Shown piece by piece: positions 61,352-64,000 of a DNA stretch of 64,000 nucleotides (positions within the stretch are counted from its first letter, which is position 1; each line of letters opens with the position of its first letter). Below the pieces are notes generated by a model that saw only the letters and a program-made list of their open reading frames with translations, was not told where the DNA came from and did not search any database. Source of the stretch: Akkermansia sp. (lineage in GTDB: Bacteria > Verrucomicrobiota > Verrucomicrobiia > Verrucomicrobiales > Akkermansiaceae); NCBI GenBank assembly GCA_017521405.1, contig JAFXCP010000005.1, positions 84,009-148,008 on the forward strand, written 5' to 3'. The position numbers and the translations under genes are program-made.

Positions 61352-63772
61352 TCAGCCCCGGCGGCGGCGCGCAGCCAAGGCCGCCAACGCCAGCAAGCTC
61401 AGCGTCGCCGTGGAAGGCTCCGGAATCGTGGGTAGCGTAAAGCCCGCCACATTGCCCTCTATGCCCTCATAAGTGGCACCCTCCATACTCAGCGTCAGAT
61501 TGCTGTAATCCTCATCCGCATCACTGCCGAAATCGAACTCCACACCTGTGTACCCGGAGGCCACCAAAGCCTCCGTATCCACATCGAAACTCAAATCACC
61601 CTTCACCGTGCATTGGAACAGATGGCTCAGGTCCACGTGGTAAATACCGCCATTCCCGGCCTCCGGCAGAGTAATGCGCAAAATAGCATCAGAGAGGATA
61701 ATACTCCCCCCCGCACCCACGGAGAACGAGCAATCCGTATCGAAGCCTACATCCGCCAGCGTCAGCGTGGCCAGTGCCGCGGAGAAATGCACATTCTCCA
61801 TCTCCACGCCGGAGATACCGTAAGCCTCGCCCACGGCTTCCATCCACACATCCTGCATGCGGGCGGATTCGCCATTGCCGCTCACTTGGCCGGAAAGGAG
61901 GCTCACCCCTTCCAGCGAAGCCGCAGTATCACCGGATTTCAGGCTCAAGCCCCCATCCAGAGCAGCCGTGCCGCTCACACTCATGGCGGCACCATCCTTC
62001 AGCACCACATTGCCGCTAATGGTGCTGCTGCCTTCCACCTCCAGCTTTGTGCCGGAGTTAAAGGTCAGTTCGTATCCGGCATGGTTCAGCGTGGCATCCT
62101 TCATCCGCACCGTGGCTTCCGAACCCTCATGGGCAGTGATACCTTGTCCTTGGTACACCGCGCCATCCTCCACACGCAAACGCCCGCCGTACAGATTCGT
62201 CATCGCAAGCACCTCCGTGGTGCGGGAATTCAGGATTTCCTCCGCAGTGCCGGCACTGCCCTTGGCCGCCAGCAAATCAGCCTCCGTGGTGGCGCCGGTA
62301 AAGAGGATATCGCCCTTCTGCTTCAGACCATTGTAATCGGCATTCAAATCCACACTGCTGCTGCTATACATGGTATCCCGGAAAATGATGCTCTTCCCCT
62401 CCGCTGCGGAGAGGGAAACTGAGCTTGTGGCATAAATGCTCCGCAGTCGATAACCGGAATCGGATATCTCCACATTACCCGCAAATTCCACGGAATCATT
62501 GTTGCGGATGGTCAAGGTACCATAAGCATAAATCGCGCCGCCGGAGCCGGAAGCCGTGTTCCCGCTGAAGGTCACCGTGCCGTTGTCGCTCAGAGTAATG
62601 ATGCTGTACTCATCCCCATAAATCGCGCCGCCGCCGTAGCCGTCGGAGGAGCTGGAAGCCGTGTTCCCGCTGAAGGTCACCGTGCCGTTGTTGCTCAGCC
62701 CGATGTAGCCATAGCACCCATAAATCGCGCCGCCGCCGGAGGAAGCCGTGTTCTCGCTGAAGGTCACCGTGCCGTTGTTGCTCAGCTTGATGCTGCCGCA
62801 GGTGCCCCCATCAATCGCGCCGCCGGAGTTGTAAGCCTTGTTCCCACTGAAGGTCACTGTGCCGTTGTTACTCAGCGTGATGGTGCTGCTGTCGTACCCA
62901 AAAATCGCGCCGCCTCTGGAAGCCGTGTTCCCGCTAAAGGTGACCGTGTCGTTGTTGCTCAGCGTGATGGTGCTGTACTCAACCCCATAAATCGCGCCGC
63001 CGTAGCCGTAGGTGGAGCCGGAAGCCGTGTTCCCGCTGAAGCTCACCGTGCCGTTGTTGCTCAGCGTGATGGTGCTTTCGTAGCTCCCATAAATCGCGCC
63101 GCCGTAGAAAGTCGTGTTCCCGCTAAAGGTGACCGTGTCGTTGTTGCTCAGCGTGATGGTGCTGGAGGAGCCCCCATAAATCGCACCGCCGTAGGCGTAG
63201 GTGGAGCCGGAAGCCGTGTTCCCACTGAAGCTCACCTCGCCGTTGTTGCTCAGCGTGATGGTGCTTTCGTAGCTCCCACAAATCGCGCCGCCTCTGGAAG
63301 CCGTGTTCCCGCTAAAGGTGACCGCCTCGTTACAATTTAAGGTGATGGAGCTGTTCCTGTCGCCATGAATGGGGCCGGAGTTTTTCTTGAAACTGACATC
63401 CTGAAGCGCGATGAATTCCAGGAATTTTTCTGCGCTTACATTGAAGAGCCAAGCGGTATTATCCGAGAAGCTCAGGGATTTGAGTGCCTCCGGGGTATGG
63501 CTGGTGAAATAGAAGGAACCCACCCCCGGCTCCATCAGCACATAATCCAGAGCGCTGATGCTCACATCCTCGATGAGCCGGAAGGCCACATTGGAGGAGG
63601 ACATGGAATAAGCAAAAATATCGGCAAAGGCATCTGTTTGCGTTCTGAAGCTATATTGCTCCGGAATCACAATTTCCGTGGGCGCCGTGTAGGCAGCATA
63701 CAGAGCGGAGGGAACTGCCACCATCAAAGCGATGACGGCACGAAATAAACGAGAGGGAAGATGCAGTCTCAT
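61352..63772 (-). CDS. Surface beta-helix protein with Pmp-like repeats and PEP-CTERM anchor
   Basis: 806 residues. Signal peptide MRLHLPSRLFRAVIALMVAV then PSALYA-A. Residues about 135-440 hold nine full repeats and one degenerate repeat of 27-34 residues with the pattern STITLSNNGTVTFSGNTAS then GGAIYG. The paired FSGN and GGAI motifs are those of chlamydial polymorphic membrane proteins (FxxN and GGAI). A second beta-rich region follows (about 470-770). The end IPEPSTATLSLLALAALAAR then RRRG is a PEP-CTERM sorting tail, so there is no autotransporter barrel. Probably exported and anchored by an exosortase system. The ATG at 63772 lies inside a 54-bp inverted repeat shared with a divergent paralogue. 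Confidence 0.9.
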   Translation of the reverse strand: MRLHLPSRLFRAVIALMVAVPSALYAAYTAPTEIVIPEQYSFRTQTDAFADIFAYSMSSSNVAFRLIEDVSISALDYVLMEPGVGSFYFTSHTPEALKSLSFSDNTAWLFNVSAEKFLEFIALQDVSFKKNSGPIHGDRNSSITLNCNEAVTFSGNTASRGGAICGSYESTITLSNNGEVSFSGNTASGSTYAYGGAIYGGSSSTITLSNNDTVTFSGNTTFYGGAIYGSYESTITLSNNGTVSFSGNTASGSTYGYGGAIYGVEYSTITLSNNDTVTFSGNTASRGGAIFGYDSSTITLSNNGTVTFSGNKAYNSGGAIDGGTCGSIKLSNNGTVTFSENTASSGGGAIYGCYGYIGLSNNGTVTFSGNTASSSSDGYGGGAIYGDEYSIITLSDNGTVTFSGNTASGSGGAIYAYGTLTIRNNDSVEFAGNVEISDSGYRLRSIYATSSVSLSAAEGKSIIFRDTMYSSSSVDLNADYNGLKQKGDILFTGATTEADLLAAKGSAGTAEEILNSRTTEVLAMTNLYGGRLRVEDGAVYQGQGITAHEGSEATVRMKDATLNHAGYELTFNSGTKLEVEGSSTISGNVVLKDGAAMSVSGTAALDGGLSLKSGDTAASLEGVSLLSGQVSGNGESARMQDVWMEAVGEAYGISGVEMENVHFSAALATLTLADVGFDTDCSFSVGAGGSIILSDAILRITLPEAGNGGIYHVDLSHLFQCTVKGDLSFDVDTEALVASGYTGVEFDFGSDADEDYSNLTLSMEGATYEGIEGNVAGFTLPTIPEPSTATLSLLALAALAARRRRG
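62510..63330 (-). repeat. Tandem coding repeats (about 80-100 bp units) of the Pmp-like protein
   Basis: Repeating DNA units with near-identical cores (for example TTGCTCAGCGTGATGGTGCT recurs at roughly 62955, 63058, 63145 and 63247) and variable-length Gly/Ser/Tyr insertions between them. Units of 27-34 codons differ in length by whole codons, as expected if slippage or unequal recombination changes copy number in frame. Boundaries are approximate. Confidence 0.85.
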
Positions 63773-63803
63773 AGTGTCATCATGATAGCGGTTTCTAAAA
63801 CCG
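63750..63803. repeat. Left arm of a perfect 54-bp inverted repeat
   Basis: Base-for-base reverse complement of 63947-64000. It contains the first 23 bases of the PEP-CTERM gene (start codon at 63772), the TATCAT -10 box on the minus strand (63787-63782) and the palindrome CGGTTTTAGAAACCG. Identity stops at 63804. Its outer limit cannot be seen because the right arm reaches the window end. Confidence 0.97.
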
Positions 63804-63946
63804 CAAGAATTCTTTCCTAACACTCAGGTATACCTCAGCTTGCATTTTCTCTTTCAAGGCCCATGTGTTTTTTTATTGCCCATAGATGAAAAATATAACT
63901 CTCTTGCATCTCAATGTTGATTTTTTCCGTATTTCATGCTTGACTA
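63804..63946. other. Segment between the inverted repeat arms, possibly invertible
   Basis: 143 bp, AT-rich, no coding capacity seen. At its right end TTGACT (63940-63945) forms the -35 box for the rightward gene. At its left end the corresponding position for the leftward gene is ATTCTT, a poor -35. Two short perfect palindromes lie near the left arm: AAGAATTCTT (63805-63814) and AGGTATACCT (63826-63835). Confidence 0.6.
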
Positions 63947-63968
63947 CGGTTTTAGAAACCGCTATCAT
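63940..63968 (+). promoter_or_regulatory. Promoter of the rightward paralogue, with palindrome in its spacer
   Basis: TTGACT (63940-63945), 17-bp spacer, TATCAT (63963-63968). Start near 63975, about 3 nt before the ATG at 63978. The spacer is almost filled by CGGTTTTAGAAACCG (63947-63961), a 6+3+6 palindrome that could be an operator or a recombinase site. Confidence 0.7.
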
Positions 63969-64000
63969 GATGACACTATGAGACTGCATCTTCCCTCTCG
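63947..64000. repeat. Right arm of the 54-bp inverted repeat (continues to window end)
   Basis: Exact reverse complement of 63750-63803, up to the last base of the window, so the true repeat is at least 54 bp and may extend further into the rightward gene. Confidence 0.97.
63978..64000 (+). CDS. Start of a divergent paralogue of the Pmp/PEP-CTERM protein (partial)
   Basis: ATG at 63978 opens a frame reading MRLHLPS before the window ends, identical at DNA level to the first codons of the leftward gene at 63772. With the promoter just upstream this is almost certainly the start of a related signal peptide. The rest of the protein is outside the window. Confidence 0.75.

Follow-up and report, generated by a model that had tools for sequence, protein, structure and literature searches.

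The last bases of the DNA examined here raise the question whether a surface-protein gene of Akkermansia sp. is controlled by an invertible promoter, and what such a promoter would choose between. The window, that is the whole stretch of 64,000 nucleotides that was analysed, comprises positions 84009–148008 of contig C30 (JAFXCP010000005.1, assembly GCA_017521405.1). Sequence comparison shows that it ends in two inverted arms (63750–63803 and 63947–64000) in which 54 of 54 bases are complementary and which enclose 143 bp, as a preliminary description of the sequence had reported. Window base 64000 is also the last base of C30 (148008), so that the right arm is cut there and 54 bp is a minimum length set by the contig edge. 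We conclude, with a probability of roughly 0.88, that this locus is one of seven Akkermansia-type promoter switch (inverton) cassettes, flipped by a recombinase and moving the -35 box. We regard it as a real promoter switch belonging to a kind already published, although the site has diverged in this species; the new part is its anatomy, the elements of which are the following.

61352–63772, minus strand: gene A, predicted target of the switch, in the orientation read as OFF (open reading frame (ORF) and domain matches)
63782–63787, minus strand: TATCAT, fixed -10 box of gene A, not part of the invertible segment (sequence)
63788–63804, no strand: left 17-bp putative recombination site GCGGTTTCTAAAACCGC, doubling as promoter spacer (sequence, genome-wide recurrence)
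63805–63945, no strand: predicted invertible segment of 141 bp with one -35 box (sequence; inverted segments in paralogues and relatives)
63940–63945, plus strand: -35 box TTGACT, currently pointing right, away from gene A (sequence)
63946–63962, no strand: right 17-bp putative site ACGGTTTTAGAAACCGC (sequence, genome-wide recurrence)
63963–63968, plus strand: -10 box TATCAT of the right arm, within the exact mirror of the left arm (sequence)
63978–64000, plus strand: start of a putative second surface gene (23 nt, 7 codons, MRLHLPS), or a mirror of the start of gene A (cut by the contig end)

In the right arm, TTGACT is followed after a 17-bp spacer by TATCAT and by an ATG at 63978. The left arm, read on the minus strand, has ATTCTT (63810–63805) in the place of the -35 box, the same 17-bp spacer, TATCAT (63787–63782) and an ATG at 63772. 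Swapping 63805–63945 would give the left gene TTGACT-N17-TATCAT, and both this consequence and the promoter geometry had been described correctly. The locus thus has a pair of inverted sites of about 17 bp separated by 141 bp (110–170 bp in relatives), and the positions of TTGACT and TATCAT, together with the box counts in relatives given below, indicate a promoter that is complete on the target side in one orientation only.

Gene A encodes a protein of 806 aa with a signal-like N-terminus (MRLHLPSRLF), polymorphic-membrane-protein (PMP) repeats and a PEP-CTERM tail, and matches the families POMP_repeat (2.1e-40), Chlam_PMP (5.7e-27) and PEP-CTERM (1.1e-4). The preliminary description had spoken of two divergent surface-protein genes; this holds for gene A, but the gene on the right is known only for 7 codons since the right arm reaches the contig edge, and its 23 nt are identical to the start of gene A. 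Within gene A, nine imperfect PMP-type repeats spaced 87–105 bp were noticed (window 62527–63380), which may add further variation through changes in their copy number.

The mechanism we propose is that a tyrosine recombinase from sister copies of the cassette would act on two inverted 17-bp sites of the GCGGTTTTAGAAACCGC type and flip the 141-bp segment. The site would itself be the spacer of a sigma-70-type promoter, the -10 box staying with the target gene and the -35 box riding on the segment. In the ON orientation TTGACT-N17-TATCAT would be complete and the PEP-CTERM surface protein A would be made; in the orientation assembled here gene A has no -35 box and would be off. That transcription follows the swap of the boxes is predicted from the promoter sequences.

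The repeat recurs elsewhere in the genome. Its core 12-mer GGTTTTAGAAAC has 10 occurrences in the 1.99-Mb genome and its reversed control has 0. Every one of the 10 belongs to a paralogous cassette, on C10, C11, C18, C21, C22, C27 or C30, so that it is not a chance repeat. The -35 box plus site, CTTGACNNCGGTTTTAGAAAC, with at most 2 mismatches, has seven copies, on these same seven contigs, and none in the control. The genome holds seven promoter-switch cassettes, five of which keep two recognisable sites. On C11 and C22 the far side of the cassette is occupied by the N-terminus of a tyrosine recombinase, cut by the contig starts, and recombinase remnants lie alongside the cassettes on C10 and C21, where the second site is kept with 2 mismatches. 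The target on C22 is an MBOAT acyltransferase gene, with the recombinase on the other flank. It may be mentioned that the promoter faces the surface gene where the recombinase is a remnant (C10, C21) and faces the recombinase where the assembled part of the latter looks intact (C11, C22), in four cases only.

Evidence that such segments flip comes from loci with opposite orientations between fixed flanks. Loci L211 (Lapin-032 bin68) and L218 (Lapin-024 bin76) of two relatives share flanks that are 97% identical over 190 bp on the left and 94% over 296 bp on the right, their sites and the 60 bp left of the site are identical, and the interior is inverted at 97% identity over 156 bp in a gapped BLAST alignment (ungapped, 81/155 positions agree in the inverted sense vs 39/155 in the direct one). 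The paralogues L190 and L191 of one metagenome-assembled genome (MAG) also have an inverted interior, at lower identity. Both orientations are thus seen in relatives and also between paralogues of the genome studied here: measured against their flanks, the segments of C10 and C11 run in opposite directions (98% identity over 101 bp in the flank, 79% in the interior), as do those of C27 and C30 (84% in the flank, 91% in the interior). When every pair of loci that has a collinear flank and an interior that can be aligned is counted, the interior is inverted in 22 pairs and not inverted in 83.

A wider view was obtained from the best 80 of 366 recombinase relatives, taken from a scan of named genomes and all titled Akkermansia or Akkermansiaceae MAGs; many of these loci, drawn from related MAGs, are not independent of each other. 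Within 600 bp upstream of the recombinase, 64 of the 80 loci have an inverted repeat of 10 bp or more, and 10 of the 16 loci lacking one have less than 220 bp of upstream sequence. Promoter boxes were counted at 61 loci, after L170, L176 and L207 had been dropped from the 64 as having no TTG near the inner edge; L159, a mirror at a contig edge that is taken up again below, was included. A -10-like box (at least 4 of 6 bases) exactly 17 bp from the -35 box is found on the side of the opposing gene in 46/61 loci vs 2/61 on the side of the recombinase, which indicates that the site is the promoter spacer, that the -10 box is fixed by the target and that the -35 box travels. Recombinase-side boxes at a spacer of 20 (16/61) were not counted, as 14 of the 16 have an ATG at the hexamer. 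The idea of a self-driven recombinase, the -35 box driving it while the target is off, was considered and is unsupported by the two recombinase-side boxes at 17 bp.

The association with recombinases is also seen in loci chosen in another way. The pattern CTTGACTTACGGATTNNNAA has 42 matches in 10 of 77 genomes of the genus and 0 in the control, and a recombinase adjoins the cassette in 27 of the 30 examined loci found by it, which were chosen independently of the recombinase. In addition, the distance between recombinases correlates with the distance between their sites (r = 0.59, reached in 0/5000 shuffles; 59 loci, L159, L170, L176 and L195 being left out by hand and L207 by the TTG rule), and does so within genomes (74 pairs, r = 0.53, 8/5000 shuffles), a result to be expected of recombinases that each recognise a site of their own. 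The claim of the preliminary description that an invertible segment moves the sole good -35 box is therefore well supported, by the conserved architecture, by opposite orientations at near-identical loci and by the linked tyrosine recombinase.

These observations also bear on a simpler explanation in which there is no switch, divergent surface-protein genes share a promoter and a signal-peptide start through recent duplication, and the repeat is a by-product. The gene starts of this surface-protein family are indeed similar anyway. However, the identity sets in where a 17-bp site has its inner edge, and this site recurs beside non-surface genes (the MBOAT acyltransferase and the recombinase on C22), segments are found inverted between fixed flanks, and recombinases are linked to the cassettes in relatives; we regard this explanation as highly improbable.

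As to the genes that would be switched, an opposing-gene ORF is present in 61 of the 64 loci. Family scans of the 61 opposing proteins, trimmed to 780 aa beforehand, gave Pfam matches to PMP repeats (14), ankyrin (6), Acyl_transf_3 (5), autotransporter (4), GtrA (2) and HsdM (1), so that the opposing genes with a Pfam match are mostly of phase-variable kinds; 28/61 proteins have an MKLHLP-type signal start like that of gene A. Some cassettes face genes other than those for surface proteins, namely a type I restriction HsdM gene (L212) and ankyrin-repeat genes (L206, L211, L214, L219). In L218, the inverted partner of L211, that side has only a 73-aa ORF with no Pfam match.

The preliminary description had seen no recombinase gene. 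This is correct for the window and for the whole of C30, where a profile search gave no PF00589 match, but recombinases are present at sister cassettes of the same genome, and the right flank of the C30 cassette is cut by the contig end. The start of C11 and the end of C31 overlap by exactly 135 bp and together yield a recombinase of 335 aa that matches Phage_integrase (PF00589, 1.2e-9) and has XerA, XerC and XerD relatives in the PDB. Residues R202, K229, D285xxR288, H311 and Y321 are invariant in 15 recombinase sequences, and R202, K229, R288, H311 and Y321 we take to be the catalytic R-K-(H/D)xxR-H-Y set of tyrosine recombinases. Five C-terminal recombinase pieces lie at contig edges (C20 twice, C31, C32 and C38), which implies at least five similar recombinase genes. 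A query with the 91-aa N-terminus matched 15/15 relatives of the same genus at E <= 0.001 (weakest 4.4e-8) and 0/9 genomes from other genera at the same threshold. This family presumably performs the flip.

Contrary to the preliminary description, which knew of no comparable case in Verrucomicrobiota, invertible promoters in Akkermansia have been published (PMC13343947 and PMC11892184, both citing Jiang 2019), and the former states that Verrucomicrobiota contain a high number of invertons. For the cps1 inverton of A. muciniphila it reports both orientations in one population and an association with capsule ON/OFF by experiment; the present locus resembles cps1 as an inversion adjoining a surface locus in Verrucomicrobiota, whereas cps1 controls a capsule locus and the present cassette would control a surface protein (PMC13343947). 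According to PMC11892184, PEP-CTERM genes are enriched near A. muciniphila inverton group 138, and one inverton, with 174 bp between arm starts, lies near two autotransporter genes and shifts orientation over mouse generations. In genome G040 a pair of arms with the same 174-bp spacing lies next to an MKLRLP-type gene, at positions that differ by 1,966 bases from the published coordinates. This inverton was considered as a precedent for a two-target switch, but within the 9 kb examined none of the ORFs of 150 aa or more is an MKLRLP-type gene facing it from the other side. PMC11892184 further describes invertases near invertons as generally not placed to be inverton-driven, in agreement with the missing -10 box on the recombinase side here. 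The words 'recombinase' and 'integrase' do not occur in the main text of PMC13343947, and a limited literature search, which covered neither Jiang 2019 nor supplements, found no publication naming the recombinase of Akkermansia invertons.

Compared with the Akkermansia CGGATT..AATCCG invertons of these papers, the present cassette shares the genus, inverted sites of about 17 bp, an intergenic promoter segment and PEP-CTERM genes nearby. The window site CGGTTTTAGAAACCG differs from the published motif in its core (CGGTTT-TAG-AAACCG vs CGGATT-NNN-AATCCG), and here recombinase genes lie beside sister cassettes, the right flank of the C30 copy being cut by the contig end. The published CGGATT pattern has 0 matches in this genome (G000), and relatives carry further site variants (CGGTTT.., CGGCTT..). 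In Bacteroidota, capsule and SusC/D loci have invertible promoters served by Mpi or by local tyrosine invertases, the whole promoter lying inside the segment. They share with the present system intergenic inverted repeats, several sites per genome and surface targets, whereas in the present system the -35 box alone is moved and the spacer is the site itself. The anatomical rule (site as spacer, fixed -10 box, moving -35 box, adjacent co-varying recombinase) can serve to find such switches, to read ON or OFF from sequence and to choose the recombinase, in a widely studied gut genus for which recent work links invertible promoters to capsule and colonisation (PMC13343947).

Several observations weigh against the interpretation of the C30 locus as a recombinase-flipped switch. 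With no recombinase in the window, action in trans by the recombinases of sister cassettes has to be supposed, and flipping of the C30 copy itself we infer from its paralogues and relatives. The sister copies on C18 and C27 have the -35 box toward the surface gene and no good second site, the best partner sites having 6/15 and 4/15 mismatches, respectively, and these copies look locked. Six of the 80 recombinase loci show no repeat in a full 600 bp of upstream sequence. The assembled -35 box faces the recombinase (target off) in 54/61 loci and the target in 7/61, of which L147 and L195 are doubtful; under a stricter count the -35 box points to the recombinase in 48 loci, to the target in 8, both ways in 3 and neither way in 5. 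Finally, the pattern CTTGNNNNCGGATTNNNAATCC (-35 box plus CGGATT site) has matches in 31 of 77 genomes (control, 0), and 40 of these matches were fetched from G017, G040, G041, G045 and G004 (loci L280–L319), which are probably human-associated Akkermansia. Only 11/40 have a partner repeat 70–260 bp away and only 2/40 a recombinase alongside. A -35 box plus site alone thus does not prove that an inverton is present, and the link with recombinases is at its strongest in lineages close to that of the window. Several of the 29/40 matches without a partner repeat at this distance precede MKK-type secreted-protein genes; such sites could be promoters that are locked, could have partners farther away or could hold a palindromic operator in the spacer.

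If the C30 locus is a promoter switch, what lies on its right side is a separate question. The preliminary description had proposed a two-way choice between two surface proteins; this is not established, because the right arm may be the assembler's mirror image of the start of gene A, produced from flipped cells in which TTGACT is joined to A. In that case the actual sequence on the right would be a different one, for example a recombinase gene, and the reading as a switch would be unaffected. In favour of such an origin, the right arm is 54/54 identical to the left one and ends at the contig edge, and of 76 contig ends (5 read as N) that of C30 alone matches itself in inverted orientation over 20 bp or more within 900 bp. 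The paralogues differ over these 54 positions at 1 (C27), 8 (C11), 15 (C18), 17 (C21) and 19 (C10) positions. The far side at C10, C11, C21 and C22 is a recombinase start or remnant, and the five C-terminal recombinase pieces at contig edges vs N-terminal ones only at C11 and C22 (besides the remnants) imply that recombinase-side flanks are missing from the assembly. On the other hand, 54 is not a typical overlap of this assembly (141 at 18/76 ends), and at ten contig edges there are surface genes whose 5' ends are missing, so that a real second gene could have been lost too. The suggestion that 54 equals k-1 for k = 55 failed for C30, as contig ends overlap by 141. On balance we give a mirror image slightly better than an even chance.

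The other explanation is a real surface gene B on the right, with the single -35 box choosing between A and B. It agrees with the proper -10 box at 17 bp and the start codon of the right arm, with near-identical gene starts in the genome (C27 is 98% identical to window 63700–63805) and with the ten contig edges bearing surface genes that lack a 5' end; among these, the start of C2 and the end of C37 possibly miss only the first 130–160 residues, the register being uncertain owing to the repeats. In the relative L251, moreover, genes resembling those of secreted proteins lie on both sides of the cassette. But gene B is visible for 7 codons only, and no continuation of it appears in this assembly, which lacks 5' ends of surface genes and of recombinases alike: the five matches in this genome to the first 133 residues of A are A itself and four other loci, each matching from residue 1. 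L251 has a good -10 box on one side only and was rejected as a two-target precedent, its second side having no good -10 box at 17 bp. Two-target cassettes could not appear in the 61-locus set, which was chosen by recombinase, and only the set found by pattern could show them. In relatives this set comprises 55 cassettes that have a partner repeat: 38 are flanked by a recombinase and 17 are not. L222 is the only one of these 17 with a -10-like box on either side, but the second of its ORFs, of 78 aa, is doubtful, and 0 of the 17 is a convincing two-target cassette, L222 and L251 coming nearest. We consider a real gene B possible, though short of an even chance, and lean slightly toward the mirror image. 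The fuller proposal of a true two-way switch moving the -35 box only, with a 141-bp segment between the genes of two divergent PEP-CTERM proteins, identical arms that contain their -10 boxes and start codons, and a multi-copy recombinase family acting in trans on cassettes throughout the genome, appears a little more doubtful still. Were gene B real, the locus would resemble the mba/UU376 inversion of Ureaplasma, which reportedly switches surface proteins; that organism is unrelated, and the two are set side by side by description only.

A parallel to the supposed mirror image exists in a relative, in which one contig (the start at L159 and the end at L240 being the same stretch) carries at its edge a perfect mirror, 59 bp long, of its own recombinase start; 59 is a usual MEGAHIT k-mer. 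This looks like the assembly trace of mixed orientations, and mirrors of this type may offer a cheap marker of active invertons in MAGs.

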